Assembly: GCA_020052415.1 (NCBI GenBank)
Contig: JAGVPB010000021.1
Location: 1 to 64,000, forward strand
Source: Bacteroidales bacterium
Lineage (GTDB): Bacteria > Bacteroidota > Bacteroidia > Bacteroidales > JAADJA01
Direction of reading: 5' to 3'
Length of the DNA stretch: 64,000 nucleotides
Part shown: in pieces, positions 10,600-63,685 of the stretch
Layout of the letters: every line of letters begins with the position of its first letter
Position numbering within the stretch: position 1 is the first letter of the stretch
The notes under the pieces: generated by a model
Database searches by the model: none
What the model was told of the DNA's origin: nothing
Seen by the model: only the letters and a program-made list of their open reading frames with translations
Program-made: the position numbers and the translations under genes

Positions 10600-10655
10600 G
10601 AAATACAACAGCATCAGGTTTTAAATCTCTGATTCTACAACTTAAACAGAAAAAA

Positions 10656-44514: not shown

Positions 44515-46098
44515 TCACTTAACAAACTTACCATTCTGTGTAAAACTGTTTATACCTGATAATAAATAAAGGTATAATCCTGGAAGAAAATGTGAAATAT
44601 CAATGGATTGTCTATTGCCAACTTTGCAGGTAAGAATTTTTTGACCGGTTGGATTTATTATTATCAAATCAAATTCTTCAGACGAACTGAATTCCAATTT
44701 CAATATTTGTTCAGAAGAAATGTATTTTAAGGAATGCCCCTGATACGTGACGACCGGTTCAGGTATTGAAACTGAACCAGTATCACACACACAAGCACTG
44801 CGGATAATATCTCTGCGGAACATAGGCCAATCCGGACCACCCACACTTTCAAGTGAAACAGCATACGCCCGGCCATAATTTAACTGGACATTCGGATATT
44901 CGGCATGGCCGCCCACTACAAAAGCATCGAGCAATCCATCATTGTCAAAATCGCCAATCAACGGACCATGATCAATTTCAAAATCCTGAGTCCCGAAATG
45001 TGCCTGGAGGTCAACATTCCAGATCAAACTTCCGTCATTTCCATTTAAACCGATCAGGTTTCCTTCGCTTGTGCCAAAAACAACATCCAGAAATTCATCA
45101 TTGTTTACACCTGAAATAGCTGCTCCTCTGAATGTTGAGCCATAACCCGGAATGGAATAACTCCAGAGCAGATTACCATCGCTTTTAACCGCACCTATTT
45201 TATACCAGTCGCTGACAACGATTTCAAGGGATTCATCATTATTTAGGTCGGCAATGCTTGTAGGTGCTCCAATGTAAAAAGGTGATGGAAAAGAAAAATC
45301 CCACAAAAGACTTCCATCTTCAACATTTAAAACATTTAGCAAACCTGAATAATCACCTATTGCGACTTCTTTTATCCCATCTCCATCAATATCGGCTTGT
45401 GAAGCACCATGATAAATAACATCGTTGGGCAGGTCCGATTCCCAAATCAATTCATGATTATCGCCCCTGAATGCAAAGATTTTATGATTTGTTCCAAAAC
45501 TCCAGTTGGCTACAACAAAATCAAGTTGTCCGTTCCCATCCACATCGAGGATCGTTGGTTCAGTTTGTATCCAGCAATTGGGATCGGCATTGAACTCCCA
45601 TTCGATTGAACCGTCTTCACCATTAATACAAATGATCCATCCATCAAATTCACCGTGGAGGATTTCAGGCTTATTGTCATTGTCAACATCGGCAATGGCA
45701 GGAGGTGAATCGCTGCCATGAGTGGGTGTTGTCCATTCAATATCTCCGGTGAGCGCATCAAAGCAAAAGGTTTGTGCTACACAGGAACCTGGAAGGACGA
45801 TTTCAAGTTCCCCATCCAAATCCACATCATAGATTATGGGAGCCACATCATTACAACCGCCGGTATTTACATCCCACAGCAATGAGCCATCTTCGGCATT
45901 CAAAACTATGATTCGTTCATCATTTCTATAAGTGCTGAATACTATTTCAGGCAGGTTATCATTGTCCACATCAGCCATAGCTGCGTTACCAAACGACATA
46001 TCATCAGTGTCGTACCACCACTTGATTTGCGGAGTTTGTGAGTTACAATTATACCAAAATTGGAATATTAGCAACAGGAATAAAAATTGAGTTTTCAT
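44515..46098 (-). CDS. Secreted FG-GAP/VCBS beta-propeller protein with T9SS sorting domain
   Basis: A 527-residue protein with a signal peptide (residues 1-20). At least eight acidic calcium-binding repeats are spaced about 45-50 residues apart: DVDNDNLPEIV, DVDLDGELEIV, DVDNDNKPEIL, DVDGNGQLDFV, DIDGDGIKEVA, DLNNDESLEIV, VNNDEFLDVV and DFDNDGLLDAF. Intervening NAEDGSLLWD-type strands resemble PQQ-like blades. The C-terminal ~70 residues are a type A T9SS sorting domain. A minus-strand -7 candidate TATATTTG lies at 46149-46142. Probable surface or secreted protein of unknown ligand. Confidence 0.92.
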   Translation of the reverse strand: MKTQFLFLLLIFQFWYNCNSQTPQIKWWYDTDDMSFGNAAMADVDNDNLPEIVFSTYRNDERIIVLNAEDGSLLWDVNTGGCNDVAPIIYDVDLDGELEIVLPGSCVAQTFCFDALTGDIEWTTPTHGSDSPPAIADVDNDNKPEILHGEFDGWIICINGEDGSIEWEFNADPNCWIQTEPTILDVDGNGQLDFVVANWSFGTNHKIFAFRGDNHELIWESDLPNDVIYHGASQADIDGDGIKEVAIGDYSGLLNVLNVEDGSLLWDFSFPSPFYIGAPTSIADLNNDESLEIVVSDWYKIGAVKSDGNLLWSYSIPGYGSTFRGAAISGVNNDEFLDVVFGTSEGNLIGLNGNDGSLIWNVDLQAHFGTQDFEIDHGPLIGDFDNDGLLDAFVVGGHAEYPNVQLNYGRAYAVSLESVGGPDWPMFRRDIIRSACVCDTGSVSIPEPVVTYQGHSLKYISSEQILKLEFSSSEEFDLIIINPTGQKILTCKVGNRQSIDISHFLPGLYLYLLSGINSFTQNGKFVK

Positions 46099-47425: not shown

Positions 47426-49051
47426 ATGGAAAATCTATTGTTATTAGGTGATGAAGCCATTGCTCAGGGCGCTATTGATGCAGGAATATCAGGGATTTAT
47501 GCTTATCCCGGAACACCCTCAACAGAAATAATGGAGTATGTAATGAATTCCAAAGAACCGGAGGCTAAACAAATAAGATCCGGTTTTGCCACAAATGAAA
47601 AGACTGCAATGGAAGCTGCACTTGGAATGTCATATACAGGTAAACGTGCGATCGTATGTATGAAACATGTAGGATTAAATGTAGCTGCCGATGCTTTTAT
47701 TAATTCTGCCATTACAGGTGCAAACGGTGGACTCATCGTTGTTGCCGCGGACGACCCTTCAATGCATTCTTCACAGAACGAGCAGGATTCACGATTTTAT
47801 GGTAAGTTTGCCATGATCCCGACTCTTGAGCCCTCAAACCAGCAGGAAGCTTACGACATGGTTCATCATGGGTTTGATCTTTCTGAACGTTATCATGTAC
47901 CCATATTAATGCGAATTACGACAAGGCTTGCACATTCCAGGTCGGGGGTCAGAAGAAAAGAACAAAGGGGACAAAATCAAATTCATTTACCCGAAAATCC
48001 AAAACAGTTTATTCTTCTTCCTGCAAATGCCAGGAAACAATACAGGCATCTCCTGGATATTCAGGAAAGCTTTCAGGCAGAGTCGGATAACAGTGAATTT
48101 AATATTTATTACAATGGAATTAATAAACAGCTTGGTATTGTAGCTTGCGGAATTTCCTATAATTATCTGATGGAAAATTATCCGGAAAGACTTATTCCAT
48201 ATCCGGTTCTTAAAATCGGGCAATACCCGGTTTCCAGGCCAAAAATGAACAGACTTTATAAGGAATGTGACGAAATTCTAGTCCTGGAGGACGGTTACCC
48301 GATAATAGAAGAGCTGATCAGCAGCTTCTTCGGACAAGGTAAAAAAATAAAAGGGCGGCTGGATGGCACTGTTCAGCGTGATGGTGAACTTAATCCCAAT
48401 AAAGTAGGAAAGGCTTTAGGGCTGGTTTTCCCGGAAACAAGGCCTGTTCCTAAGCTGGTAACTGGGAGGCCGCCAAAACTTTGTCAGGGATGCCCGCACA
48501 TTTATTCCTACAATGCTTTAAATGAAGCACTGGCGGGTTTTACAAAAGGCAGGGTTTTTTCTGATATTGGATGTTACACCCTCGGAGCTCTTGAACCTTT
48601 TGAAGCTATCAATACCTGCGTGGATATGGGTGCCTCCATTACTATGGCAAAGGGTGCCCATGATGCTGGATTTTCTCCTGCAGTAGCAGTAATTGGAGAT
48701 TCCACATTTACCCATTCAGGGATGACCGGTTTACTTGATGCAGTAAATGATAACTCGTCAATTACCGTAATTATTCTTGATAATGCAACGGTAGCAATGA
48801 CCGGAGGACAAAAATCTGCAGCAACAGGCAAAATCGAATCCATTTGCGAAGCTCTTGGGGTTGAAAAGGAGCATATTAAAGTGATCAATCCTTCCCCCAA
48901 AAACCATGAAGAAAATATGAATATTTATAAGAAGGAGATAATGTACGAAGGTGTTTCAGTAATAATTCCACGAAGAGAGTGCTTGCAGACTGCAGCAAAG
49001 AGGCTTAAAGATGAAAGCAGGAAAAAAGAATTGGATAAGATTAACGTTTAA
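47426..49051 (+). CDS. iorA: Indolepyruvate oxidoreductase subunit alpha, thiamine-diphosphate dependent
   Basis: A 541-residue subunit that oxidatively decarboxylates aryl pyruvates to aryl-acetyl-CoA with ferredoxin. The N-terminal pyrimidine-binding domain starts LLLGDEAIAQGAIDAG and has YPGTPSTEIME. The C-terminal thiamine-diphosphate domain contains LCQGCPHIYSYNAL and the GDSTFTHSGMTGLLDAV...DNATVAMTGGQ motif. Longer IorA proteins end in a ferredoxin domain with two CxxCxxC clusters; none is present here. iorB follows after 15 bp. Confidence 0.93.
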   Translation: MENLLLLGDEAIAQGAIDAGISGIYAYPGTPSTEIMEYVMNSKEPEAKQIRSGFATNEKTAMEAALGMSYTGKRAIVCMKHVGLNVAADAFINSAITGANGGLIVVAADDPSMHSSQNEQDSRFYGKFAMIPTLEPSNQQEAYDMVHHGFDLSERYHVPILMRITTRLAHSRSGVRRKEQRGQNQIHLPENPKQFILLPANARKQYRHLLDIQESFQAESDNSEFNIYYNGINKQLGIVACGISYNYLMENYPERLIPYPVLKIGQYPVSRPKMNRLYKECDEILVLEDGYPIIEELISSFFGQGKKIKGRLDGTVQRDGELNPNKVGKALGLVFPETRPVPKLVTGRPPKLCQGCPHIYSYNALNEALAGFTKGRVFSDIGCYTLGALEPFEAINTCVDMGASITMAKGAHDAGFSPAVAVIGDSTFTHSGMTGLLDAVNDNSSITVIILDNATVAMTGGQKSAATGKIESICEALGVEKEHIKVINPSPKNHEENMNIYKKEIMYEGVSVIIPRRECLQTAAKRLKDESRKKELDKINV

Positions 49052-49066
49052 AAATTCATTTGAGGG

Positions 49067-49654
49067 ATGAAAAAAGATATCATATTAGCCGGGGTCGGCG
49101 GCCAGGGAATTCTTTCAATTGCAGCAGTAATTGGAACGGCCGCCGTTGATTCGGGTTTATTTTTAAAACAGGCTGAAGTTCATGGAATGAGCCAGAGAGG
49201 TGGTGATGTTCATTCAGATTTGAGAATTTCTGACAAAGAAATTGCATCCGATCTTATACCCGAAGGCAAGGCAGATATGATAATTTCAGTAGAGCCGATG
49301 GAATCACTGCGGTATATCCCAATGCTTAACCCGGGCGGATGGTTGATAACAAATACCGATCCTTACATTAATATTACCAATTATCCGGACATGCAGTTGG
49401 TTTTGAATGAAATAAGGTCATTTCCAAACCATGTAGCCATTGATGCAAATAAAATCGCTGCTAAACTCGGCCAGAAAAAATCTGCAAACATGATAATTTT
49501 AGGTGCATCATCAATATTTATAGGGCTTGAATACCGGAGGCTTGAAAATTCAATAAAGACAATTTTTAAAAACAAAGGTGAAGATGTAGTGGAATCAAAT
49601 ATTGTAGCGTTAATTGCCGGAAGGAATTTTGCTGAAAGTTATATCAAAAATTAA
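49067..49654 (+). CDS. iorB: Indolepyruvate oxidoreductase subunit beta
   Basis: A 195-residue gamma-type subunit of 2-oxoacid:ferredoxin oxidoreductases. It begins DIILAGVGGQGILSIAAVIG, the family's nucleotide-loop signature, and has VHGMSQRGGDVHSDLRIS. It partners with IorA immediately upstream. The pair suggests amino-acid fermentation or aryl-acid metabolism. Confidence 0.94.
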   Translation: MKKDIILAGVGGQGILSIAAVIGTAAVDSGLFLKQAEVHGMSQRGGDVHSDLRISDKEIASDLIPEGKADMIISVEPMESLRYIPMLNPGGWLITNTDPYINITNYPDMQLVLNEIRSFPNHVAIDANKIAAKLGQKKSANMIILGASSIFIGLEYRRLENSIKTIFKNKGEDVVESNIVALIAGRNFAESYIKN

Positions 49655-49767: not shown

Positions 49768-51648
49768 ATGATCATGAAGAGGATTTTACTTTTAACCTTT
49801 GTATTAGGTTTTGTTGCCAGTGGGTTTACTCAGCGGGCATCAATTTCCAAAGAACAACGCAATTATGCGGTAAAAAAGGTTCAGCCGACGACTGAAACCA
49901 TGAATTTCAGTCATGAAACTATGACTTCTGCCATGCAACTTGTTACACCGACAGAAGATGTTATTATGCCTAATGACCGCTTTGATCTTCAAACCAATAC
50001 CAGCATGCAAAACAGGATTTATGTTTATGATGATGGTACTATTGGAGCAACATTTACTTTCGGTGTGGCTGAAACAGCCTTTGCAGACCGTGGTACGGGT
50101 TACAACTATTTCGATGGTACTGCATGGGGTCCTGCACCATCTGCAAGAATCGAATCTGACCGTACCGGATGGCCAGCCTATGCTAAATGGGGAGTCAATG
50201 GCGAAATCAATTGCTCTCATTATTCAGGTGCCGCTATTGGAGGCCTTGACATTTCAAAAAGGACAAATAAGGGAACGGGAACATGGGAATCCTCAGTGTT
50301 TCATAGTCCCGAACCTTTAGCCGAGTATTTATGGCCAAGAATGACTACCGGAGGAACTGACAATTCTGTTATTCATGTCATTTCCCTTACCATGCCTGTT
50401 GCCAATGGTGGTGTTGTATATCAGGGAATTGATGGAGCATTGCTCTATTCCAGATCATCCGACGGTGGTACCACCTGGGATCCGCAACATTTAATTATGG
50501 AAGAACTGAGCAGTAATTTTTACAACAGTTTTGCAGGTGATACCTATGAAATTCAGGCTCAGGGTGACAATGTTGCAATCCTGTATGGTGAATCATGGCA
50601 GGATCTTGCTATGATGAAATCAACTGACGGCGGAACCACATGGACCCAGACTATTATCTGGCAGCATCCTTATCCTTTCTATGTAACCGGTGATATTACC
50701 GATACATTCTATTGTGCTGACGGCGCTCACAGCCTTGCTTTCGATCAGAGCGGTATGGTTCATGTCGCTTTTGGTATTAACAGGGCATATTCAGATGCTG
50801 CAGGCAGCTATTGGTTCCCGCTTGTTGATGGTTTGGGATACTGGAATGAATCCAGACCGACTTTCTCCGACGATATGGATGCATTATGCCCATATTCAGA
50901 TTGCGGTTACTCAGAATTGGTTGAAGACTATAGCCTTATCGGATGGGCACAGGACATCAACGAAAACGGAACGTGGGATATAATTGGTGAAGTTGGAGCT
51001 TATTACATCGGCGCTTCAAGTCAGCCTCAAATTCTGGTTGATGATGTGAACGGGATTTATGTGGTATGGGCTGGCGTAACCGAAACTTATAACAACGGAA
51101 CCCAGGATTATCGTCACCTCTGGGCACGTTACTCACCCAACGGCGATTGGTGGGCTAACAAATTTGTTGACTTGACCGGTTCCCTTGAGCATATTTTTGA
51201 TGAATGCGTTTTCCCGTCAATAGCTTCAACTTCTGACGATTATTTCTACCTTGTTTTCCAGACTGATATTGAACCCGGACTTGCCGTAAGAGGCGATTTG
51301 GATCCTTATACAGACAATGCCATCAGGGTGATGAAGGTTGATAAAAATGAGGTAAAAGTTGGAATAAAAGAAAACAATATGCCGTTCGACGAATACGATG
51401 TATTGCAAAACTATCCAAACCCGGCTTCGGGAATGACCAGCGTTAAAGTTAATATCAGAAAAGCTACTGAACTTTCAATGGATATTGTTAACATGATGGG
51501 ACAAAAAGTTCTTGAAGTTGCTCCACGTTCAGTTCTTCCTGGCATGAACGAAATAACGTTTGATGCATCCAAACTTACTCCCGGCGTTTATTTTTACGTT
51601 GTAAATGCAGGCGATGCATCCATCAGTAAAAAAATGGTTGTTGAATAA
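49768..51648 (+). CDS. Secreted Asp-box propeller with T9SS sorting domain (array copy 1)
   Basis: A 626-residue first member of a six-gene paralogous array. Signal peptide residues 1-21; ATG at 49774 is an alternative start. Asp boxes SSDGGTTWDP (about 229-238) and STDGGTTWTQ (about 284-293) are clear; a third is degenerate (SPNGDWW). A calcium-loop-like DINENGTWD sits at about 396-404. Family landmarks: FADRGTGYNYFDGTAWG, DTFYCADGAHSLAFD and DGLGYWNE. The type A sorting domain starts near 544 (LQNYPNPASG) and ends KKMVVE. Asp boxes mark sialidase-like beta-propellers, but no sialidase catalytic motif is seen. Closest in the array to copy 5. Confidence 0.88.
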   Translation: MIMKRILLLTFVLGFVASGFTQRASISKEQRNYAVKKVQPTTETMNFSHETMTSAMQLVTPTEDVIMPNDRFDLQTNTSMQNRIYVYDDGTIGATFTFGVAETAFADRGTGYNYFDGTAWGPAPSARIESDRTGWPAYAKWGVNGEINCSHYSGAAIGGLDISKRTNKGTGTWESSVFHSPEPLAEYLWPRMTTGGTDNSVIHVISLTMPVANGGVVYQGIDGALLYSRSSDGGTTWDPQHLIMEELSSNFYNSFAGDTYEIQAQGDNVAILYGESWQDLAMMKSTDGGTTWTQTIIWQHPYPFYVTGDITDTFYCADGAHSLAFDQSGMVHVAFGINRAYSDAAGSYWFPLVDGLGYWNESRPTFSDDMDALCPYSDCGYSELVEDYSLIGWAQDINENGTWDIIGEVGAYYIGASSQPQILVDDVNGIYVVWAGVTETYNNGTQDYRHLWARYSPNGDWWANKFVDLTGSLEHIFDECVFPSIASTSDDYFYLVFQTDIEPGLAVRGDLDPYTDNAIRVMKVDKNEVKVGIKENNMPFDEYDVLQNYPNPASGMTSVKVNIRKATELSMDIVNMMGQKVLEVAPRSVLPGMNEITFDASKLTPGVYFYVVNAGDASISKKMVVE

Positions 51649-51665
51649 ATTACTCTTTATTTATA

Positions 51666-51698
51666 AAAAAAGCTCTCTGTCATGAGAGCTTTTTTTTT
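51666..51698 (+). terminator. Terminator after array copy 1
   Basis: Perfect 12-bp stem AAAAAAGCTCTC / GAGAGCTTTTTT with loop TGTCAT, followed by further T to 51698. Confidence 0.92.
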
Positions 51699-51790
51699 CA
51701 CTGATCTTACCTATTTATTATTGAAACCGCAGTGAGGTTTGAAATTCCTTATCGAAAATATTTTTTACAAACTGTTCAATAATTATTTTG

Positions 51791-51798
51791 TAAATTTG
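51791..51798 (+). promoter_or_regulatory. -7 element of array copy 2
   Basis: TAAATTTG matches TAnnTTTG, 40 bp before the ATG at 51839; no clear -33 element. With the terminator upstream it implies separate transcription of copy 2. Confidence 0.5.
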
Positions 51799-51838
51799 TT
51801 TCAATTTATTTGTAAGCAGTACTTTAAAATTAAATACC

Positions 51839-53707
51839 ATGAAAAAAATTTTAACTTTCTTTTTCGCCCTCACTTTGGTGATTGCTGGATTTTCGCAAAA
51901 AAGAGCAGTCCTTTCTGATAACCTCAGGAATTATGGCGTCATTAAACCTTTGCCGGGTAATGAACCTGCCACTGTTGCTCAGAATAGTTATCCAATTATT
52001 AAAGCTGGTGATGATTTTTATGATGAGATTCAGGTGGGTACCACTCGATTCGACGATCAATCAAATGCCAGTATGCAAAACAGATTGTATTTGTATGAGG
52101 ATGGTACAATCGGCGCTGCATGGATTTTTGGACTGGGAGAAACAGCATTTACTGACCGGGGTACAGGATATAATTATTTTGACGGAACCGCCTGGGGTGC
52201 TATTCCGGGTATAAGAATAGAAGATGAAAAAACCGGCTGGCCATCCTATTCTCCTTTGGGAGAAGAGGGTGAAATTGTTATAAGCCATACCGGAGCCACA
52301 GGGATGAAAATAGCCAAACGGGCTCAAAAAGGAACCGGTGACTGGAACTATTCGTTACTTGAAGGCCCCGACGGACACCACATGCTTTGGGGACGTTCAA
52401 TTACAAGTGGCGTTGACCATAACAGGGTTCATGTTCTTGCACTTACCCTCCCGTTATCACATGCCGGAACTCCTTATGCCGGACTTGACGGCGCTTTGGT
52501 ATATTCACGTTCAACAGACGGAGGAGATACCTGGGAGATCGAAAACCAGATTTTGGATGGAATGACCGCTAATGAATATTATGGTTTTTCTTCCGATATT
52601 TACGCTTTTGCAGAACCAAAAAACGATGTCATCGCTTTTACAGTCGGTGAAAGCTGGACAGATTTGTTTCTCATGAAGTCAATTGACGGTGGCCAGACAT
52701 TTGAAAAAACCATGATCTGGGAAAATCCCTATCCTTTTTTCAACACTCAGGCACCCGCAGCAACCGATACATTTTATTGTATAGATGGTGCTCATAGCCT
52801 TGTTATTGATGACGATAATAAGGTTCACGTGGTATTCGGTATAAACAGGTCGCTTTCGGATGGAACCAATATGTACTGGTTCCCGTTTGTGGATGGAATC
52901 GGTTACTGGAATGAAGATATGCCTGCCTTTTCAAACGATGTGAATGCTTTGAGTCCTTATGGCGATCCGGGTTCCGAGCTTGTTGAAGATTACAATCTGA
53001 TTGCATGGACCCAGGATGTAGATGGTGACGGCCAGATTACCTTTGTCGGTAACGGTACCGAAAATATCGGGACTTATTATCTGGGCCTGTCGAGTATGCC
53101 GCAGCTCGTTATCAACAGCAATGATCTTTATCTGATCTTTTCATCTACAACTGAAACCTATGATAACGGAACGGCTAATTACCGGCATTTGTGGGAGCGT
53201 TATTCGACTGACGGTGGAACCACATGGGACGATTTTACGGATCTTACATCCGATCTTATCCACATCTTCGATGAATGTGTTTACCCAAGCTGTGCATCAA
53301 ATACGGATGAAAATCTTTACCTGCTGTACCAGCAGGACAACGAACCCGGCAATGCTGTTTGGGGTGCACAGCATCCTTACGGAGACAATAAAATTGTGAT
53401 GATGACGGTTCCAATTCTGGGCACAGATATTAAGAAAACGAGTGATCTTGAAAACAATGTATCTCAAAACTATCCCAATCCTTTCGATAAATATACCGAA
53501 GTAAATATTATTTTTACTGAATCATGTACAATATCAATTGAGGTTTCAAATGGTTTGGGTCAAAAAATTTGGGAGTCCAAATCACTTAGCTGCAGACCTG
53601 GTAAGAACACAATTACCATTGATGGTGCAGGTTTGTTTCCGGGAGTTTATTTCTATACAGTAAGAACAGGTGACGATGCAGTAACCAAAAAAATGACTGT
53701 TAAATGA
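51839..53707 (+). CDS. Secreted Asp-box propeller with T9SS sorting domain (array copy 2)
   Basis: A 622-residue paralogue with a signal peptide (residues 1-18, ending AGFSQ). Three Asp boxes: STDGGDTWEI, SIDGGQTFEK and STDGGTTWDD. The calcium-loop-like motif is DVDGDGQIT, the closest in the family to an EF-hand loop. Landmarks TDRGTGYNYFDGTAWG, DTFYCIDGAHSLVID and DGIGYWNE are conserved. The C-terminal sorting domain starts at VSQNYPNPFDKY and ends KKMTVK. Closest relative in the array is copy 3: both share a DECVYPSCA...AVWG...HPY...DN region absent from the others. It is bounded by terminators on both sides. Confidence 0.88.
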   Translation: MKKILTFFFALTLVIAGFSQKRAVLSDNLRNYGVIKPLPGNEPATVAQNSYPIIKAGDDFYDEIQVGTTRFDDQSNASMQNRLYLYEDGTIGAAWIFGLGETAFTDRGTGYNYFDGTAWGAIPGIRIEDEKTGWPSYSPLGEEGEIVISHTGATGMKIAKRAQKGTGDWNYSLLEGPDGHHMLWGRSITSGVDHNRVHVLALTLPLSHAGTPYAGLDGALVYSRSTDGGDTWEIENQILDGMTANEYYGFSSDIYAFAEPKNDVIAFTVGESWTDLFLMKSIDGGQTFEKTMIWENPYPFFNTQAPAATDTFYCIDGAHSLVIDDDNKVHVVFGINRSLSDGTNMYWFPFVDGIGYWNEDMPAFSNDVNALSPYGDPGSELVEDYNLIAWTQDVDGDGQITFVGNGTENIGTYYLGLSSMPQLVINSNDLYLIFSSTTETYDNGTANYRHLWERYSTDGGTTWDDFTDLTSDLIHIFDECVYPSCASNTDENLYLLYQQDNEPGNAVWGAQHPYGDNKIVMMTVPILGTDIKKTSDLENNVSQNYPNPFDKYTEVNIIFTESCTISIEVSNGLGQKIWESKSLSCRPGKNTITIDGAGLFPGVYFYTVRTGDDAVTKKMTVK

Positions 53708-53726
53708 TATTCCTCGTAAATTATTT

Positions 53727-53762
53727 AAAACCCCGATGAGACTTTGCACATTGGGGTTTTTT
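53727..53762 (+). terminator. Terminator after array copy 2
   Basis: AAAACCCC (53727-53734) pairs with GGGGTTTT (53753-53760), followed by T residues to 53762. Confidence 0.85.
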
Positions 53763-53778
53763 CTATATCATGCCAGGA

Positions 53779-53807
53779 TTTGTTTATTTTTTATTTCATT
53801 AATTTTG
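53779..53807 (+). promoter_or_regulatory. Promoter of array copy 3
   Basis: TTTG (53779-53782) and TAATTTTG (53800-53807) with 17-bp spacing; the -7 element ends 22 bp before the ATG. Confidence 0.62.
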
Positions 53808-53829
53808 CTAATCTAAAAAAAGATATACA

Positions 53830-55701
53830 ATGAAAAAATCTATTATCATACTTGTAATGTTGTACCTGCCCTTTTTAGCGATTTCGCAGGACAGAGCCTT
53901 ACCATCACAATCTCTCAGGGATATAGTGCTGGTAAAAAATAGTGGAGAAAAAAGATTTAATTTTTCCGAAATAAAGTCAGAACCCATGGTTAAATCCGAT
54001 GGAGTGACTGTGGAAGAGGCTTCCATTGGCGACACACGTTATGATAACCAGTCGAATGCCAGTATTCCGAACAGAATTTGTTTTTTCGACGATGGAACCA
54101 TTGGCACGACATGGACACGAAGCATGCAGGAAACCATGTTTCCTGACAGGGGGACCGGCTATAATTATTTCGATGGCACACAATGGGGCGATTGGCCGGA
54201 AGCAAGGGTAGAGGCAGCACAAACAAACCGACCGACTTATACTCGCTGGGGTGCAACTGGTGAAATGATCGTATCGCATACCGGCGGAAGTGGATTGTAC
54301 ATATCAACCCGCGAAGAAAAAGGAACCGGATCGTGGGATTTTTCTTCTTTTTCAGGTCCTGCCGGCCAACCTTACATCCTTTGGGACAGAGCCATCACCA
54401 GCGGTCCAGATTACAACAGGGTTCATTTGCTTGCCCTCACTTTACCTACAACTCATGGCGGCACACCCTACATGGGATTGGATGGAGCTTTACTTTATTC
54501 TTACTCAACCGACGGGGGCCTCACATGGTACTGGCAAAACGAAATCCTCAGTGGAATGGCCTCCGACGAATATACCGGATTTTCAGCAGATATTTACACT
54601 TTTGCCCAGCCAAAGGAAGATGTTGTAGCATTTGTTGTCGGCGATAGCTGGTGCGATTTGTTTTTGATGAAATCGGTTGATGGAGGTGAATCATTTGAAA
54701 AAACCATCATCTGGCAGCATCCTTATCCGCTATGGCAATTTGGAACACCCACTGATACCTTTTATTGTGCCGATGGCGCACATAGCCTGGTAATTGATAA
54801 TGCAGGGACGGTTCATGTGGCTTTCGGAATCAGCAGGGCGCTGGCCGATGCTGATAATACCTACTGGTATCCGTTTGTTGATGGAATTGCATACTGGAAT
54901 GAAAACATGCCGGCTTTTTCAAACAATGTAAATGCTCTCAGTCCTTATGGTGATGCTGGTTCAGAACTGACAGAAGACTATAACCTGATCGGCTGGTCGC
55001 AGGATGTGGACGGTAACGGCTCCCTGGACTTAATTGGAGAGATAGGTTTATATTTTATCGGATTATCAAGCATGCCGCAACTGGTAATGGATGATCAGAA
55101 CAGGTTATACCTTGTATATTCGTCTGCCACCGAAACCTATACCAATGGAACTCATAATTACCGGCATATCTGGGCAAGGGGTTCCAATGACGGAGGACAG
55201 AACTGGTTCGATTTTTTAGATCTCACTTCTGATTTTGTCCACCTGTTTGATGAGTGTGTATATCCCAGTTGTGCAGCCGGTTCCGACGATTACATTCACC
55301 TGATTTATCAGCATGACAACTCTCCCGGAACTGCAGTATGGGGATCGCAACATCCTTATGAAGATAACACCATCGGATATTTAAAAATTAGCAAGGCCGA
55401 ATTGACACCCGTTGGCATAAAAGAAATAAACGAAACGCTAACTGATAGCGATGTCAACCAGAATTATCCGAACCCATTTCGGGGAAGTACGGAGGTTATG
55501 GTAAATCTTAAACAAATATGTGATCTGACTCTGGAAGTGGTCAGTATTACCGGCCAAAAAGTGTATGAAACTGAAATATTGAGGGCAAAGCCGGGTTTAA
55601 TCAGAATATCCATAAATGCTGAAAATATAAAACCAGGAATTTATTTTTATACGGTTAAAGCAGGGAATTCAGCATTTACGAAGAAAATGGTGGTGGAATA
55701 A
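53830..55701 (+). CDS. Secreted Asp-box propeller with T9SS sorting domain (array copy 3)
   Basis: A 623-residue paralogue with a signal peptide (residues 1-19). Asp boxes STDGGLTWYW, SVDGGESFEK and SNDGGQNWFD; calcium-loop-like DVDGNGSLD. Landmarks PDRGTGYNYFDGTQWG, DTFYCADGAHSLVID and DGIAYWNE. The sorting domain begins VNQNYPNPFRGS and ends KKMVVE. It is most like copy 2 and has its own promoter and a strong terminator. Ligand and function are unknown. Confidence 0.88.
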   Translation: MKKSIIILVMLYLPFLAISQDRALPSQSLRDIVLVKNSGEKRFNFSEIKSEPMVKSDGVTVEEASIGDTRYDNQSNASIPNRICFFDDGTIGTTWTRSMQETMFPDRGTGYNYFDGTQWGDWPEARVEAAQTNRPTYTRWGATGEMIVSHTGGSGLYISTREEKGTGSWDFSSFSGPAGQPYILWDRAITSGPDYNRVHLLALTLPTTHGGTPYMGLDGALLYSYSTDGGLTWYWQNEILSGMASDEYTGFSADIYTFAQPKEDVVAFVVGDSWCDLFLMKSVDGGESFEKTIIWQHPYPLWQFGTPTDTFYCADGAHSLVIDNAGTVHVAFGISRALADADNTYWYPFVDGIAYWNENMPAFSNNVNALSPYGDAGSELTEDYNLIGWSQDVDGNGSLDLIGEIGLYFIGLSSMPQLVMDDQNRLYLVYSSATETYTNGTHNYRHIWARGSNDGGQNWFDFLDLTSDFVHLFDECVYPSCAAGSDDYIHLIYQHDNSPGTAVWGSQHPYEDNTIGYLKISKAELTPVGIKEINETLTDSDVNQNYPNPFRGSTEVMVNLKQICDLTLEVVSITGQKVYETEILRAKPGLIRISINAENIKPGIYFYTVKAGNSAFTKKMVVE

Positions 55702-55752
55702 GAACCTTCGCGCTGTTGGTGTCTGCGCCAAAGAAATGAAAAAAGATTACCC

Positions 55753-55790
55753 GACCTGTCAGGTTTTTTCCAACCTGACAGGTCTTTTTT
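55753..55790 (+). terminator. Terminator after array copy 3
   Basis: Perfect 13-bp stem GACCTGTCAGGTT / AACCTGACAGGTC (55753-55765, 55772-55784), six-base loop, then six T. Confidence 0.93.
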
Positions 55791-55849
55791 ATGACATTTT
55801 TATATTTATATTTTTTCTTAACTTTACTGCAACTTTAATTCATTGACCC

Positions 55850-57592
55850 ATGAAAAGAATTATACTTTGCATTGCGCTTGCAACCATTAACCTTGCAGTT
55901 TATTCGCAGGAACCTATCATCGGCGAGACTTATTATGATCTTCAAACCAACGGTTCGTGCCAGAACAGGATTTATGTTTACGAGGATGGAACTATCGGCA
56001 CCACATGGACAAGAGGAATGGAATATTTTTCTTTTGTTGACCGTGGCACCGGTTATAATTATTTCGACGGCAGCGTTTGGCAGCCCTGGCCTGAAGAAAG
56101 GATTGAAAACCAGCGCTGTGGTTGGCCATCGTATGCTCCTTATGGTGAGAGTGGTGAACTCGTGGTAGCTCATCTTTCTGGCGCAGATACAGTAGGATTA
56201 TTATTCAACAAAAGAACTATCAAGGGCACAGGTGGCTGGACTGAATCTTTATTCACCGGCCCTGTTGGCAATGAGACATTATTATGGCCAAGGATGGTGA
56301 CGGGTGGTTTGAACCATGAACACATTTTTCTGATTGCGTTTTCTTCCCCTGAAGCCAATGGCGGAGATCCCTACCAAGGTCTAGATGGCGCATTGCTTTA
56401 TTCCCGCTCGATAAATGGCGGGAACTCATGGGATATTCAGAACCAAATATTCCCGGGAATGGATTCTACGGAATACAATGGCTTTGCAGGCGACTGCTAT
56501 GCTATTGCTGAACCAAAAGACAATATAATTGCTTTTGTTGTTGGTTCTTTCAGAACAGATATGTTTTTGATGAAATCAATTGATTATGGCCAGACATTTG
56601 AAAAAACCATTATCTGGGACAATCCTTATGATACCATCCTTCCGGCGGATACTTTTTATTGTGTTGACGGCTCAGTTGCTGTTGCTTTGGATGTAAGCGG
56701 GAAAGCACATGTTGTATTTGGAATTACGAATCTCTGGTACAATGGTGGTTGGTATGGTGACAGATCAATTGACGGTATAGGATACTGGAATGAAGACCGC
56801 CCGGTATTTTCATCCGAAGTCAATGCCTTAAATCCTACCGGCGGTCCGGGCAGTGAGATGGTGACCGACTACAACCTGATAGGATGGGCTCAGGATATAA
56901 CCGGAGATGGTATAGTTACATATTCTCCCTATAATTCATTCGGCTATTGTAACCACTATAGTGTTTCAAGCATGGTACAGCTTGTGACTGATGACCAGAA
57001 CAGGATTTTCATCTTTTATACTTCCGTTACTGAAACCTATAACAACGGCATTGATAATTACCGGAGATTATGGTCACGATCTTCATTGAATGGGGGTGAA
57101 ACCTGGGGGCAATTCTATCACTTTTTTGCAGATGATACGACCACTATTTTCAATGAATATGCTTTTCCTTCCTGTGCTGCCCGGTCGGATGATTATATTC
57201 ATCTTGTGGCAATGATCGATATGGCACCCGGTATTTACAATTGTCCGGAAGAAAATTATTATGAAAATAACTTTCAATATATTAAGGTTTCGAAAGTGGA
57301 TATTGTCGGTATTGAACCGGTCATTGAAAAGCCTGGATTTGAGGTTTCTCAGAACTTTCCCAATCCTTTCTCTGAATCCACTCTTGTTAAAGTCAACCTT
57401 TCCGTACCTGCCAATCTGACCCTCGATATCCTGAATTTATTAGGGCAAAAAGTTGGTCCGACAAAATATTTCAATGGATTAACAGGAAACAATAACCTGA
57501 AGATTGAAAGAGCAAACCTTTCGCCGGGTGTGTATTATTATAATGTAAGAGCCGGGGAAAACTCGGTGACAAAAAAAATGATCGTTAAATAA
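55850..57592 (+). CDS. Secreted Asp-box propeller with T9SS sorting domain (array copy 4)
   Basis: A 580-residue paralogue, the shortest, because the variable segment between signal peptide (residues 1-18) and the first conserved block is nearly absent. Asp boxes are weaker: SINGGNSWDI, SIDYGQTFEK, SLNGGETWGQ. The calcium-loop-like motif is DITGDGIVT. The DTFYCVDGSVAVALD block replaces GAHSL with GSVAV, a feature shared with copy 6, as are PWPEERIE and GADTVGLLFNKR. The sorting domain begins VSQNFPNPFSES. It leads a tight three-gene run (gap of 11 bp to copy 5). A 7-of-8 -7 element TAACTTTA lies near 55819. Confidence 0.88.
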   Translation: MKRIILCIALATINLAVYSQEPIIGETYYDLQTNGSCQNRIYVYEDGTIGTTWTRGMEYFSFVDRGTGYNYFDGSVWQPWPEERIENQRCGWPSYAPYGESGELVVAHLSGADTVGLLFNKRTIKGTGGWTESLFTGPVGNETLLWPRMVTGGLNHEHIFLIAFSSPEANGGDPYQGLDGALLYSRSINGGNSWDIQNQIFPGMDSTEYNGFAGDCYAIAEPKDNIIAFVVGSFRTDMFLMKSIDYGQTFEKTIIWDNPYDTILPADTFYCVDGSVAVALDVSGKAHVVFGITNLWYNGGWYGDRSIDGIGYWNEDRPVFSSEVNALNPTGGPGSEMVTDYNLIGWAQDITGDGIVTYSPYNSFGYCNHYSVSSMVQLVTDDQNRIFIFYTSVTETYNNGIDNYRRLWSRSSLNGGETWGQFYHFFADDTTTIFNEYAFPSCAARSDDYIHLVAMIDMAPGIYNCPEENYYENNFQYIKVSKVDIVGIEPVIEKPGFEVSQNFPNPFSESTLVKVNLSVPANLTLDILNLLGQKVGPTKYFNGLTGNNNLKIERANLSPGVYYYNVRAGENSVTKKMIVK

Positions 57593-57603
57593 AATTCTGA
57601 ATT

Positions 57604-59463
57604 ATGAAAACAGAAGTATTTATTTCAGCATGTGTATTGATCAGCCTTACCGGCTTTTCCCAAAAAAGGGTGATGATCTCAAAGGAATGGCAGAATTATG
57701 GAGTAAGAATTGATAATTATGTTAAACAAAATCCGGAAGAACAACAATTAATACTTCCCTTAAAAAACAGTTGTCTCCTTGAAGAGGATATAGGTACAAC
57801 CTATTACGACCTCCAAACCATGGCAAGCACACAAAAGCGTATTCATGTATTCGATGACGGCACTATGGGTGCGGTTTGGACAATGGGATTTGATTATACG
57901 GCTTTTTGGGACAGGGGCACAGGATATAATTATTACGACGGAGCAAGCTGGGGGCCTTTTCCTGATAGTATTATTGAATCGAATCGTTCGGGCTGGCCTG
58001 AATATGCTCCTTATGGTGAGAATGGTGAAATCGTTGTTTCCCACATTTCAGGGGCGGGTGAAGCAGAAGGGCTAACCTTATTAAAGCGTGAAAACAAAGG
58101 GACCGGAGATTGGGAGGAATTAAATTTTCTTGGCCCTCCTGATTGTGAAGATTTAAAGTGGCCGCGAATTGCCACAGGAGGGGTCAGCAATTCGGTGATC
58201 CATTTATTAGCAGTTACTGCTCCCACTTCTAATTGTGGATTTCCATATCAGGGTCAGGAGGTTGCCATATTGTATTCACGATCATTCGATGGAGGAGGTA
58301 ACTGGAATCCGGAAAACTATGTAATACCAGATATAGACAGCAGCTACTATAACGGATTTAGCGCTGATGTTTATGAAATAAGAGCCGATGGCGACAATGT
58401 AGGAATTTTGATCGGGGACCCATGGATTGGTTTGCTGTTGCTAAAATCAACGGACGGAGGAGATACCTGGACAAAAACGATCATCTGGGATCATCCCTAT
58501 CCATTTTGGATAAATGGTCAGGAGACGGATACCTTTTATTGTGCCGATGGAGCCCACAGCCTGGATTTTGATGATAATGGAATTACTCATGTTGTATTCG
58601 GCATTAACCGGACTTATTCAGATGCTGCAGGATCATACTGGTTTCCTGCCGTGGATGGTATCGGTTACTGGAACGAAAACAGACCCACGTTTTCAAATAA
58701 TCTCAATGCTTTAAGTCCTTACGGAGATCCCGGATCAGAGCTGGAAGAAAATTACAGCCTGATAGGCTGGACACAGGATGTGAATCAAAACGGACAACTC
58801 GATATCCTGGAGGACTGGGGTAGATATTACTTAGGTTTTTCGAGTATGCCACAGATTATTTTTGATGAGAGCTCGAATATTCTGGTCTTAGTTTTCTCTT
58901 CTGTGACCGAGACATACGATAACGGAGCTCAGAATTACAGACATTTGTGGATGAGAGGGTCTCCCAATGGTTCATGGTGGGGGGCTTTTCATGATTTAAC
59001 GAATGATCTTTCTCACCTTTATGATGAATGCGTATTTCCTTCACTTGCTACTTTTTCTGATGATGCCTATTATTTGACTTACCAACGCGACAATGAGCCC
59101 GGACTTGCTGTGAGAGGTGATTTAGATGAGTACACAGAAAATCAAATTACTTTCATGACAACATATTTAGGTGTGGGTTTCAATGAAAAAGAAATATCAG
59201 GTGAAATCCTCAGTGTTAGCCAGAACCAGCCCAATCCGTTCAGGGGTGAAACGAAAGTAAAGGTTGAGCTTTTTGAATCCGCTAATGTATCCCTTACGAT
59301 GACAACTCTGACAGGCCAGAAGGTGCAGGAACTAAATAAAGGTCCTCTTCAGCCGGGAGTAAATATTATCACCATCGATGCGGCAGGACTCAAGCCCGGG
59401 GTTTATTTCTATACGGTAAAAGCCGGGGATAACTCCATAACGAAAAAAATGATCATCAAATAA
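57604..59463 (+). CDS. Secreted Asp-box propeller with T9SS sorting domain (array copy 5)
   Basis: A 619-residue paralogue with a signal peptide (residues 1-19, ending TGFSQ). Asp boxes SFDGGGNWNP and STDGGDTWTK, the third degenerate (SPNGSWW) as in copy 1. The calcium-loop-like motif is DVNQNGQLD. It shares with copy 1 the C-terminal propeller segment EPGLAVRGDLD.YT, so it belongs to that subgroup. The sorting domain begins VSQNQPNPFRGE and ends KKMIIK. It is separated from copies 4 and 6 by near-identical 11-bp gaps, so the three are probably one transcript. Confidence 0.88.
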   Translation: MKTEVFISACVLISLTGFSQKRVMISKEWQNYGVRIDNYVKQNPEEQQLILPLKNSCLLEEDIGTTYYDLQTMASTQKRIHVFDDGTMGAVWTMGFDYTAFWDRGTGYNYYDGASWGPFPDSIIESNRSGWPEYAPYGENGEIVVSHISGAGEAEGLTLLKRENKGTGDWEELNFLGPPDCEDLKWPRIATGGVSNSVIHLLAVTAPTSNCGFPYQGQEVAILYSRSFDGGGNWNPENYVIPDIDSSYYNGFSADVYEIRADGDNVGILIGDPWIGLLLLKSTDGGDTWTKTIIWDHPYPFWINGQETDTFYCADGAHSLDFDDNGITHVVFGINRTYSDAAGSYWFPAVDGIGYWNENRPTFSNNLNALSPYGDPGSELEENYSLIGWTQDVNQNGQLDILEDWGRYYLGFSSMPQIIFDESSNILVLVFSSVTETYDNGAQNYRHLWMRGSPNGSWWGAFHDLTNDLSHLYDECVFPSLATFSDDAYYLTYQRDNEPGLAVRGDLDEYTENQITFMTTYLGVGFNEKEISGEILSVSQNQPNPFRGETKVKVELFESANVSLTMTTLTGQKVQELNKGPLQPGVNIITIDAAGLKPGVYFYTVKAGDNSITKKMIIK

Positions 59464-59474
59464 AATCCAGAATT

Positions 59475-61283
59475 ATGAAAAGAACAATTTTATCCACAGC
59501 ATTATCAGTATTTGTGTTGATCCTTTTTGCACAGTTTCCAACCCAGCCGGTTTCGATTTTGAATCCTGTCGAAGATACAATCGGGGAATCCATTTACGAT
59601 CTCCAGACAAATGCGTCATGCCAGAACCGGATTTACCTTTTTGACGACGGCACCATCGGGGCCACCTGGACGAGAGGGATGGAAGAAACAACAGCTTTTA
59701 ATGACCGTGGTACAGGCTATAATTATTATGATGGAAGCACTTGGCAATCCTGGCCGGAAGAAAGGATCGAGAGCATGAGAACGGGCTGGCCTTCGTATGC
59801 TCCTTATGGTGAAGGAGGTGAAATAGTGGCGGCTCATATTTCAGGTGCAGATACCATTGGTTTATTATTCAATAAAAGAAACATCAAAGGCTCAGGAGAG
59901 TGGGTTGAATTTTTATTTACCGGCCCTGCAGGTCATGAACTATTATTGTGGCCAAGAATGGTCACCGGAGGCACTGATCATAGCAATATTTGCCTGATTG
60001 CAATGACTGCTCCTGTGGCCAATGGTGGTGCGTTATTCCAGGGAATGGACGGTGCATTGCTTTATTCCCGCTCAACCGATGGCGGAGAAACCTGGGATAT
60101 TCAGAATCAATTATTGCCAGGAATGGATTCGAACTTATATACCGGATTTTACAGGGACGGCTATGCTTTTGCTGAGCCTGAAAATAATATTGTCGCCTTT
60201 GTGGTAGGTTCTTATCAGAGCGACTTTTTCCTTATGAAATCAACTGATCAAGGCCAGACATTTACAAAAACTATTATCTGGGATAATCCTTACGACCTGG
60301 TTAGTCCAACATTTCCAACCGATACCTTTTATTCCGTAGATGGCTCATTAGCTGTTGCCTTGGATAATGAAGGAATGGCTCATGTGGCTTTTGGAATCGT
60401 CAAAACGTGGTATGTTTATTATGATGAAGGTTGGGCATTTGATAAATTGACTGATGGAGTGGGTTACTGGAATGAAACCATGGAAACATTTTCCTCCAAC
60501 CCGAATGCACTTGATCCGTCCTGCGGACCGGAAAGCGAGCTGGTGCAGGATGTAAGCCTTATTGGCTGGACACAGGATTTGAACGGAAATGGGGTGATGG
60601 ATATCCTTGGTGACGTAACCCCTTATTCATGTTTTTATTTTTCAATGGGAATTTCAAGTATGGTTCAGCTTGTAATAGATAGTCAAAACCGGTTATTTCT
60701 TGTCTATACCTCTCTCACCGAATCATACAATGATGGGACAAGAGATTACCGGCGTATATGGTTGAGATCTTCATTAGACGGAGGACAAAACTGGGGACAG
60801 TTTTATCACTTGGATGGCGATGATTCAACATCCATTTACACAGACTATGCATTTCCTTCATGTGCTGCGATTTCGGATGAGAAAATTTATTTAACCTTTA
60901 TGGGAGATATCGGGGCGGGGATGTATTGTATTGGGGATCTGTGTCCACCGGATGAAAATTTTATTTATTTTACTACTGTTCCGAAAGATGAAATCGTAGG
61001 CATAAATCCAGCAGGATCAGAGCCTAACTTCGAAGTTTCTCAAAACTTCCCGAATCCGTTTTCAGAATCGAGCATGATCCATGTGAACCTGGTTGAGCCT
61101 ACTGAACTCAATGTTGACATTATTAATCTGATGGGGCAAAAGGTAGCTGAATCTCAATATATAAAAGGGAAAACCGGGATAAATACGATCAAGATAGAGA
61201 GGAAGGATTTGTCGCCGGGGGTTTATTTTTACAATGTTAAAACAGATCAATCGTCGATTCGTCATAAAATGATTATTGAATAG
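59475..61283 (+). CDS. Secreted Asp-box propeller with T9SS sorting domain (array copy 6)
   Basis: A 602-residue paralogue with a signal peptide (residues 1-17). Asp boxes STDGGETWDI, STDQGQTFTK and SLDGGQNWGQ; calcium-loop-like DLNGNGVMD. It pairs with copy 4 (SWPEERIE, GADTIGLLFNKR, LLLWPRMVTGG, DGSLAVALD). The sorting domain begins VSQNFPNPFSES and ends HKMIIE. Last gene of the array; TTCG hairpins and a repeat tract follow instead of a strong T-tract terminator. Confidence 0.88.
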   Translation: MKRTILSTALSVFVLILFAQFPTQPVSILNPVEDTIGESIYDLQTNASCQNRIYLFDDGTIGATWTRGMEETTAFNDRGTGYNYYDGSTWQSWPEERIESMRTGWPSYAPYGEGGEIVAAHISGADTIGLLFNKRNIKGSGEWVEFLFTGPAGHELLLWPRMVTGGTDHSNICLIAMTAPVANGGALFQGMDGALLYSRSTDGGETWDIQNQLLPGMDSNLYTGFYRDGYAFAEPENNIVAFVVGSYQSDFFLMKSTDQGQTFTKTIIWDNPYDLVSPTFPTDTFYSVDGSLAVALDNEGMAHVAFGIVKTWYVYYDEGWAFDKLTDGVGYWNETMETFSSNPNALDPSCGPESELVQDVSLIGWTQDLNGNGVMDILGDVTPYSCFYFSMGISSMVQLVIDSQNRLFLVYTSLTESYNDGTRDYRRIWLRSSLDGGQNWGQFYHLDGDDSTSIYTDYAFPSCAAISDEKIYLTFMGDIGAGMYCIGDLCPPDENFIYFTTVPKDEIVGINPAGSEPNFEVSQNFPNPFSESSMIHVNLVEPTELNVDIINLMGQKVAESQYIKGKTGINTIKIERKDLSPGVYFYNVKTDQSSIRHKMIIE

Positions 61284-61726: not shown

Positions 61727-63685
61727 ATGATTACCCGCGACACTATACAAACCATTATCGAAACCGCCCGCATCGAGGAGGTGGTCAGCGACTTCGTAAC
61801 CCTGAGAAAGCGCGGTGTAAACATGCTCGGCCTTTGCCCTTTTCATAATGAGAAAACGCCTTCTTTCACCGTTTCACCTGCAAAAGGAATTTACAAATGT
61901 TTCGGTTGCGGAAAAGCCGGAAATTCTGTGAATTTTGTGATGGAGCATGAGCACTATACCTATCCCGAAGCTCTCCGGTTCCTGGCAAAAAAATACAACA
62001 TCGAAATCGAGGAAGCCGAGCAAACACCGGAGCAAATCCAGGAGATAAACGAAAAGGAGAGTTTGTACGCGGTAACGGCGTTCGCACAGAAATTCTTTAC
62101 GGAGCAGCTTTTTCAAACCGAAGAGGGAAAGTCGGTTGGTCTTACTTATTTTAAGAACCGGGAATTCCGTGAAAACATCATGGAGATGTTTCAGCTTGGC
62201 TACAGTCCCGATGCATGGGAGGCATTCACACAGACAGCAATAAAAAATGGTTACAACCTGGAATTTTTAGTAAAATCAGGATTAATCATCGAAAAAGACG
62301 GAAAGCATTTCGACAGGTTCAGTGCACGGGTTATCTTTCCGATCCACAACCTTTCGGGAAGGGTCATCGGCTTTGGCGGAAGGATCTTAAAAAAAGACGA
62401 AAAGAAAGCGAAATATATCAATTCGCCGGAGTCGGACATTTACAATAAGAGCCAGGTTCTGTATGGGATTTATTTCGCGAGGAATGCCATCATCAAAAAA
62501 GACAACTGCTACCTCGTAGAAGGTTACACGGATGTGATCTCCCTTGTCCAGGCCGGCTTCGAAAATGTGGTTGCTTCTTCCGGGACTTCCCTTACTACCG
62601 ATCAGATAAGGCTGATCAAACGCTATACGCCCAATATCACCATTCTGTATGACGGCGATGAAGCCGGCCTGAAAGCTTCCTTCCGCGGTATTGATATGAT
62701 ACTCGAACAGGGAATGAATGTGAAGATCGTGATGTTTCCCGACGGAGAGGATCCTGATTCTTTTGTAAGAACCCACCGCTCTATTGAAGTTGAAGAGTTC
62801 CTTGATAAAAAATCGAATGATTTTATCCGGTTCAAGACAAATATCCTTCTTAAGGATGTCCAGGACGATCCCATCAAAAAGGCGGGCTTGATAAGGGAAA
62901 TTGTTCAGTCAATCGCGCTGATACCCGATGCCATCATCCGTTCGGTTTATGTGAAAGAATGTTCCGCAACCATGGACATGGCCGAACAAACCCTGATGAA
63001 TGAACTGAATAAGCTTTTGCGTAAAAAGTTTAAACACACCACCGGTCAGGCTATTCCGGAGGAAATAATTCCCACTCCTGAACAGCCCGACGAAAAGCAG
63101 GTCGAAACAGATCACCACAATACTGAATTCCAGGAAAAAGATATCATCCGGCTGCTGCTGACTTATAGCCGGGAGAACCTTGAATTCAGCGAGAAGGATG
63201 AACACAATCATCCTGTTACGGTGGCTGTTAATGTTGCTAAATTTATCGTAGATGATATAAAAAATGATGAAATCATGTTTTCTAACCCTGTCTATCAAAA
63301 GGTATTCGATGAATATGCTGAATTCATTTCGAGGGAAGATATCCCTGATGAAAAATATTTCATCAATCACAACAGCAAGAAGGTATCCGCGGCTGTTATT
63401 GACCTTTTAACTTCGCCCTACGAACTGAGCGAAAACTGGGAACTTGTTGCGAGGATAGAAGTGGTTACTGAGAGCCGGAACCTGAAGGATGCCATTGTAC
63501 ATTCGGTTTTGTCGTTTAAAGCAAAAAAAATCGAGCAACTGATATCCGAAAGCCAGCTTGAAATAAAAAAAGCCCAGGATGAGGAAAACTATGAGGAAAT
63601 CCCTTTGTTACTGAATAAGCAAAAAGACCTAAAAACCATCAGCAGAGACATCAACCGGCAATTGGGGAGGATTGTGACGAGATAA
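61727..63685 (+). CDS. dnaG: DNA primase
   Basis: A 652-residue primase making RNA primers at the replication fork. The N-terminal zinc ribbon has C37, H40, C58 and C61 (CPFH...CFGC). The catalytic core contains the RFSARVIFPIHNLSGRVIGFGGR block and the Toprim motifs YLVEGYTDVISL and LYDGDEAGLKA. The C-terminal ~200 residues form the DnaB-interacting region, less conserved and Glu/Lys-rich. Length is typical. Local codon use looks somewhat more GC-rich than in the array upstream. Confidence 0.98.
   Translation: MITRDTIQTIIETARIEEVVSDFVTLRKRGVNMLGLCPFHNEKTPSFTVSPAKGIYKCFGCGKAGNSVNFVMEHEHYTYPEALRFLAKKYNIEIEEAEQTPEQIQEINEKESLYAVTAFAQKFFTEQLFQTEEGKSVGLTYFKNREFRENIMEMFQLGYSPDAWEAFTQTAIKNGYNLEFLVKSGLIIEKDGKHFDRFSARVIFPIHNLSGRVIGFGGRILKKDEKKAKYINSPESDIYNKSQVLYGIYFARNAIIKKDNCYLVEGYTDVISLVQAGFENVVASSGTSLTTDQIRLIKRYTPNITILYDGDEAGLKASFRGIDMILEQGMNVKIVMFPDGEDPDSFVRTHRSIEVEEFLDKKSNDFIRFKTNILLKDVQDDPIKKAGLIREIVQSIALIPDAIIRSVYVKECSATMDMAEQTLMNELNKLLRKKFKHTTGQAIPEEIIPTPEQPDEKQVETDHHNTEFQEKDIIRLLLTYSRENLEFSEKDEHNHPVTVAVNVAKFIVDDIKNDEIMFSNPVYQKVFDEYAEFISREDIPDEKYFINHNSKKVSAAVIDLLTSPYELSENWELVARIEVVTESRNLKDAIVHSVLSFKAKKIEQLISESQLEIKKAQDEENYEEIPLLLNKQKDLKTISRDINRQLGRIVTR

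Follow-up and report, generated by a model that had tools for sequence, protein, structure and literature searches.

A tandem array of six Asp-box propeller genes with type IX secretion tails in an uncultured Bacteroidales bacterium: members of a conserved, unnamed family that may bind glycans

The stretch of DNA considered here, the 64,000-nucleotide window that covers positions 1-64,000 of contig JAGVPB010000021.1 from an uncultured Bacteroidales bacterium, carries a tandem array of six consecutive open reading frames (ORFs) on the forward strand at 49768-61283, the products of which (580-626 amino acids, aa) share pairwise identity of 45-61%, far above chance. The ORF list confirms exactly the extent, strand and protein sizes that a first-pass annotation of this DNA had reported. 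In the lines below, the first coordinate of each ORF is its start, the final stop lies at 61283, and T9SS stands for type IX secretion system.

49768-51648, + strand: copy 1, 626 aa, ORF with a signal-peptide-like start, a predicted seven-bladed propeller at about residues 60-531 and a T9SS type A tail of 46.7 bits
49945-51360, + strand: predicted propeller domain of copy 1, its seven blades assigned by hand from DSSP strands, with VIA-align matches spanning model residues 60-531
50953-50979, + strand: DxDxDG-type putative calcium-loop motif DINENGTWD, residues 396-404, in the blade-5 insertion of copy 1
51412-51642, + strand: T9SS type A sorting domain of copy 1, with PF18962 and TIGR04183 over their cut-offs
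51839-53707, + strand: copy 2, 622 aa, ORF with a T9SS tail at about 53471-53701
53830-55701, + strand: copy 3, 623 aa, ORF with a T9SS tail at about 55465-55695
55850-57592, + strand: copy 4, 580 aa, ORF with a T9SS tail at about 57356-57586 and a propeller modelled over residues 21-510
57604-59463, + strand: copy 5, 619 aa, ORF with a T9SS tail at about 59230-59457
59475-61283, + strand: copy 6, 602 aa, ORF with a T9SS tail at about 61047-61277

The N-termini of all six proteins combine lysine with a hydrophobic stretch that ends near Ala/Ser-x-Gln, so that the signal peptides originally assigned to every copy stand as signal-peptide-like starts read from the sequence. Asp boxes, counted as [ST]-x-[DN]-x-G-x-x-[WF], number two in copies 1 and 5 and three in copies 2, 3, 4 and 6, in agreement with the two or three noted at first. 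The block DRGTGYNYFDG, which had been taken as common to the whole array, is exact in copies 1-4 and is replaced by a tyrosine variant, DRGTGYNYYDG, in copies 5 and 6. At the other end of the proteins, the type A sorting domain is borne out in every case: all six tails pass both the Pfam model PF18962 (34-47 bits, cut-off 27) and TIGR04183 (36-46 bits, cut-off 23). The genome (4.67 Mb, 94 contigs, 97% complete) encodes the matching machinery, SprA (2566 bits) and two PorU proteins (1330 and 1261 bits), along with at least 150 T9SS tails. These findings point to the six proteins as T9SS type A cargo, which would be exported by this route, as the first-pass annotation had proposed. A literature search for the T9SS together with Asp-box or sialidase-like propellers returned nothing. 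Three side observations pertain to the same system. The two PorU sortase genes are both full length and stand in tandem (G000:C42:149522-156718, G000 being the genome of the window). The window contains another duplicated secreted gene, a tandem pair of T9SS-tailed M1-family peptidases of 657 and 656 aa at 8626-12626. Finally, the T9SS-tail matches on contig C87 of the same genome come as mirrored pairs of equal score on opposite strands (for instance, 11567/118097 and 31403/98258), so that this contig is an inverted duplicate, probably an assembly artefact.

Structure prediction for two of the copies is compatible with a single fold. The AlphaFold model of copy 1, built from an alignment with 33 relatives, has a mean predicted local distance difference test score (pLDDT) of 84.3 and a predicted template modelling score (pTM) of 0.76, and the model of the copy 4 propeller (residues 21-510) reaches 87.9 and 0.90, respectively. 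Both are predicted to be seven-bladed Asp-box propellers in which an N-terminal strand closes the last blade, with the blades assigned by hand from DSSP. In the model of copy 1, strands 225-230 and 278-285 are each followed by an Asp box (at residues 230 and 285, respectively), which places the boxes at c-d turns; the modelled blade faces agree with the published rule for Asp-box propellers, under which the Asp boxes occupy the bottom and function resides on the top face (PMC2716378). When solved structures were compared by VIA-align, seven-bladed proteins ranked first for both models. The best match was a PLL lectin (8q82; Z 26.4 and 27.4, root-mean-square deviation (rmsd) 2.9-3.0 A over 306-310 residues), followed by GH145/PL42 proteins (Z 25-27, 3.4-3.7 A over 340-360 residues), CylK (Z 24-25), the Rha-GlcA lyase (Z 22-25.5) and the PL25 ulvan lyase (Z 22-24). 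Foldseek by itself placed six-bladed sialidases high, albeit with large rmsd, whereas VIA-align favoured the seven-bladed folds. The beta-propeller originally suggested for these proteins is thus upheld by two models and by matches to solved structures. The fold alone, however, says little on function because WD40-type and YncE propellers score nearly as high (Z 20-23).

The array is part of a conserved, multi-copy, genus-wide, syntenic and unnamed family of T9SS-exported Asp-box propellers, a family that is new only in being without a curated model, the fold itself being already known. In the genome of the window there are 14 paralogues: besides the six described here, contig 9 carries an array of four plus an isolated gene, and contigs 19, 50 and 81 carry one gene each. 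Matches are present in every one of the 16 congeneric genomes (2-19 each), compared with only three of the 43 genomes from other families of the same order (1, 1 and 7 matches). At E 1e-30, matches occur in 16 of 296 genomes sampled across the phylum, some of them confined to the last blades and the tail; this search scored only four candidates per genome and so gives no copy number. The named relatives belong to metagenome-assembled genomes (MAGs) of Bacteroidales, Saprospiraceae, Flavobacteriales and Chitinophaga and to one MAG labelled Candidatus Tenebribacter. As a side observation, two loci in genomes of the phylum from outside this class (L148 1-10911 and L149 5598-14000) hold tandem arrays of five to six genes for distant homologues, which match mainly over the last blades and the tail. 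The propeller also recurs in longer proteins, in the manner of other modular exported proteins. On contig 19 (L098 2713-9813), a paralogue of 1167 aa joins it to a carboxypeptidase-regulatory domain and an Fn3 domain and adjoins a GH38 alpha-mannosidase-like gene, and a protein of 1711 aa in genome G008 has two propellers in a row.

No curated family model covers any of the six copies over its full length, and beyond the T9SS tail there is no curated model at all; in particular, these models give no support to membership in a named enzyme family. The Pfam matches to Tli3 (best E 1.4e-4) and DUF4185 (three members) were below cut-off or minor and were taken as cross-matches to Asp boxes or to propellers. 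A sequence search of one copy against the PDB returned only a T9SS tail at E 0.16 and chance matches, and phage, plasmid and PADLOC searches gave no match.

The surroundings of the array define a slot that recurs in related genomes in the form iorA-iorB-[2 to 6 copies]-dnaG; the names of the flanking genes were read from the sequence.

47426-49654, + strand: left border of the slot, two genes read as iorA and iorB (indolepyruvate ferredoxin oxidoreductase), whose orthologues, 66-82% identical, lie beside the array in related genomes
55753-55784, + strand: terminator-like element between copies 3 and 4, a perfect 13-base-pair inverted repeat followed by six T, from a consensus scan
61727-63685, + strand: right border of the slot, a gene read as dnaG (DNA primase), also found beside family copies in G003, G007, G010, G012 and G015/L062

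The slot is occupied by three copies in G003 and by two in G015, apparently the genome to which locus L062 belongs. Contig ends interrupt it in G007, where iorB is followed by copies 1-2-3 and dnaG is preceded by relatives of copies 6 and 4; the order is only partly kept in G012 (iorAB-1-2-3 plus a copy-4 relative beside dnaG) and in G014 (iorAB-1 plus a separate 2-3 pair). The phylogenetic tree tells a compatible story: copy 3 groups with copies of G003, G007, G012 and G014, and copy 2 with copies of G003, G005, G007, G012 and G014; G007 also supplies two genes that group with copy 5 and, beside dnaG, the two with which copies 4 and 6 group. Several deep nodes are poorly supported, and the groups given here are the better-supported ones except for the pairing of copy 6 (0.57) and the node that joins copy 2 to its relatives (0.66). 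Since the window copies group with same-slot orthologues in other genomes, the copy types are older than the species. The family is old and is vertically, or at least stably, inherited. Its orthologues are under purifying selection on the gene-wide average, the ratio of nonsynonymous to synonymous substitution rates (dN/dS; Nei-Gojobori, averaged over the gene) being 0.07-0.22 in 13 close pairs, mostly orthologues; the ratio is approximate for the more divergent pairs, where dS approaches saturation. There are no recent near-identical copies within the window, and the conserved residues of the family are kept in all six genes (Glu479 being aspartate in copy 6), so that none looks degenerate.

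Within the array, copies 5 and 6 each start 11 base pairs past the preceding gene, and copies 4 and 5 are probably co-transcribed given that short gap. The hairpin at 55753-55784 would separate copies 1-3 from copies 4-6; terminator-like elements as a class show no excess (12 compared with 10.5 in shuffled sequence), and the stem of this one is by far the longest. A promoter scan likewise yielded no excess over shuffled sequence. The neighbours of the family loci are mostly housekeeping genes. Two other secreted or large proteins in the window may be mentioned here: a secreted-looking 527-aa propeller of a different class, the PQQ/FG-GAP type, at 44515-46098, a few genes upstream of the array, and a 2038-aa bacterial alpha-2-macroglobulin-like protein (MG2, A2M, bMG10) at 30333-36449.

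So could the conserved residues help in understanding what these proteins do? Conservation was assessed over 117 family members spanning much of Bacteroidota, in the numbering of copy 1. The most conserved positions are Gln75, Arg83, Tyr112, Trp120, Tyr227, the Asp-box residues, His332, Tyr358-Trp359, Glu361, Trp462, Glu479, Asp500 and Gly504. The strand topology of the model suggests that Arg83 (96%), His151 (91%), Asp258 (89%), Tyr260 (91%), Asp318, Glu479 (95%) and Asp500 (98%) belong to the top rim, where strand a begins or strand b ends. The blade-5 insertion carries the DxDxDG-type loop, which may bind calcium, in strict form in 69 and in loose form in 94 of the 117 members, compared with 0.8% of shuffled segments; five of the six window copies are among the 69.

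None of the enzyme families with related propellers can be recognised in these residues. The sialidase active site comprises three arginines, a Tyr/Glu pair and an aspartate (PMC2531273), and the array proteins share with GH33 sialidases and other BNR/BNR_2 proteins the Asp boxes and an arginine at a comparable place in the first blade. By conservation and strand position, however, only this residue, Arg83, and perhaps Asp107, has a counterpart; the Arg83-Asp107 spacing of 24 residues is close to that of Arg347-Asp372 in the sialidase NanA, and the other well-conserved arginines, Arg108 of that blade and Arg165 close to the bottom, do not fall at the two remaining sialidase places. Furthermore, sialidases have six blades, whereas the strand count in the two models gives seven. 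The absence of a sialidase catalytic set, noted at the outset, is therefore corroborated. The seven-bladed GH145/PL42, PL25 and PL24 enzymes share with the array proteins the fold (Z 22-27 for GH145/PL42 and PL25), Asp boxes and occurrence in Bacteroidota; the lyases of PL24, PL25 and PL42 employ a histidine, a second histidine about 20 residues later, a tyrosine and an arginine neutraliser (PMC8377490, PMC8406133), a set that, judged by sequence pattern, is not conserved here, the conserved histidines being 151, 203, 332 and 450 and thus including no pair at that distance. The BNR_4 model (PF15892) matches neither the six copies nor the 33 relatives, nor anything in the genome itself at E 1e-15, and a profile comparison with four BNR_4 proteins (22% probability, shifted by one blade) is too weak for mapping catalytic residues. 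The best sequence-profile match in the PDB is a GH74 xyloglucanase (2cn3, E 5e-11). GH74 xyloglucanases have two propeller domains with catalytic aspartates. Each window copy has a single propeller and the similarity is confined to Asp-box hairpins scattered over the protein, and accordingly GH74 membership was rejected.

The closest structural resemblance is to the PLL lectins of Photorhabdus, which have the same predicted seven-bladed fold, the best structural score (Z 26-27) and a set of paralogues within a single genome, five in their case, PLL to PLL5 (PMC12203525). They differ in several respects: identity in the top-ranked match is 12-14%, T9SS tails and Asp boxes belong to the array proteins, and the sites of PLL are situated between neighbouring blades and have conserved tryptophans, whereas the array proteins have irregular blades that differ from one another and carry large insertions.

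The hypothesis that we favour, tentatively and at somewhat less than even confidence, is that the six proteins are glycan-binding propellers, surface-held or released, each with its own ligand, within an old, vertically inherited family of T9SS cargo. The secretion route, the surface location, the glycan ligand and binding rather than cleavage are all features that we infer. Several lines of evidence lead to this choice: the seven-bladed fold in two copies, with PLL lectins and GH145/PL42 proteins as the nearest solved folds; the lack of conservation of the catalytic residues of the nearest enzyme families; the T9SS tail with its machinery, the purifying selection, the shared orthologue groups and the conserved slot; and the occurrence of the propeller in longer modular proteins, together with blade faces that agree with the Asp-box rule. 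Under this scenario, Sec would export each protein, which would fold in the periplasm into a seven-bladed Asp-box propeller and cross the outer membrane through SprA; PorU would then remove the tail, leaving the protein surface-held or released, with top-face residues available to bind a carbohydrate ligand. That the copies have been kept as distinct orthologous types makes it most likely that each has its own ligand. A number of observations nevertheless weigh against glycan binding. The strong conservation of His151, Asp258, Tyr260, Glu479 and Asp500 would suit an enzyme too; the top rim shows no significant enrichment in conserved charged residues (6/29, Fisher p = 0.41); blade-to-blade local alignments are short and weak except for the Asp-box pair 3-4, such that PLL-type multivalent sites between blades are not visible; no polysaccharide utilisation locus was seen among the near neighbours; and the GH38 glycosidase beside one paralogue fits glycans but not binding in particular.

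The first-pass annotation had left the choice between binding or adhesion modules and an undescribed enzyme family, and both are retained here, with glycan binding preferred. An undescribed family of secreted glycoside hydrolases or lyases, each copy cutting a different linkage, is the main rival, and we consider it less likely than glycan binding. The active site would be a pocket in the top face lined by residues such as Arg83, His151, Asp258, Tyr260, Asp318, Glu439, Glu479 and Asp500; six of these (all but Asp318 and Glu439) are kept in 89-98% of the members and map to the top rim by strand assignment, several of the nearest folds (GH145/PL42, PL25, CylK and sialidases) are enzymes, and the NanA-like spacing noted above would fit as well. 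Yet no known catalytic set is complete, the charge at the rim is as unremarkable for this hypothesis as for the preceding one, the pocket is deduced from topology, and no carbohydrate degradation genes are co-located at the window locus. A more specific proposal, a new enzyme family with a conserved acidic top pocket (Asp258, Asp318, Glu439, Glu479 and Asp500 plus Arg83 and His151) that would differ from those of known propeller glycosidases and lyases and serve as a linkage-specific set, appears less probable again.

Binding of protein or matrix partners, be it in cell-cell contact, in the extracellular matrix or in a scaffold, and without a glycan ligand, is the weaker candidate still: the structural scores of WD40 and YncE propellers and the fusions with Fn3 and possibly PKD-like segments speak for it, but those Asp-box propellers in the database that show sequence-level similarity are mostly glycan-active. 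Least credible, and indeed improbable, is the initial interpretation of this local amplification with divergence, selection for variant surface proteins; in that case diversifying selection would act on the six genes as a reservoir for antigenic or phage-escape variation. The tandem arrangement, the divergence between copies, the variation of copy number between species and the b-c loops of the top face, which are the most variable loop class (mean entropy 2.4 bits compared with 1.8-2.2 elsewhere), could all be cited in its favour. However, variable top loops are usual for Asp-box propellers (PMC2716378), groups of orthologues are maintained in this slot from species to species, the gene-wide dN/dS is low, the conserved residues are kept and near-identical recent copies are missing from the window, all of which speaks against the initial interpretation.

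Glycan binding thus remains the preferred, if tentative, explanation. Much of what such uncultured bacteria expose to the environment is T9SS cargo, the majority of which has no name. The family described here would be a tractable target for structure determination and glycan screening, and a new Pfam or NCBIfam entry could usefully be seeded from it. Furthermore, it illustrates that diverged surface proteins encoded in tandem do not necessarily signify antigenic variation.

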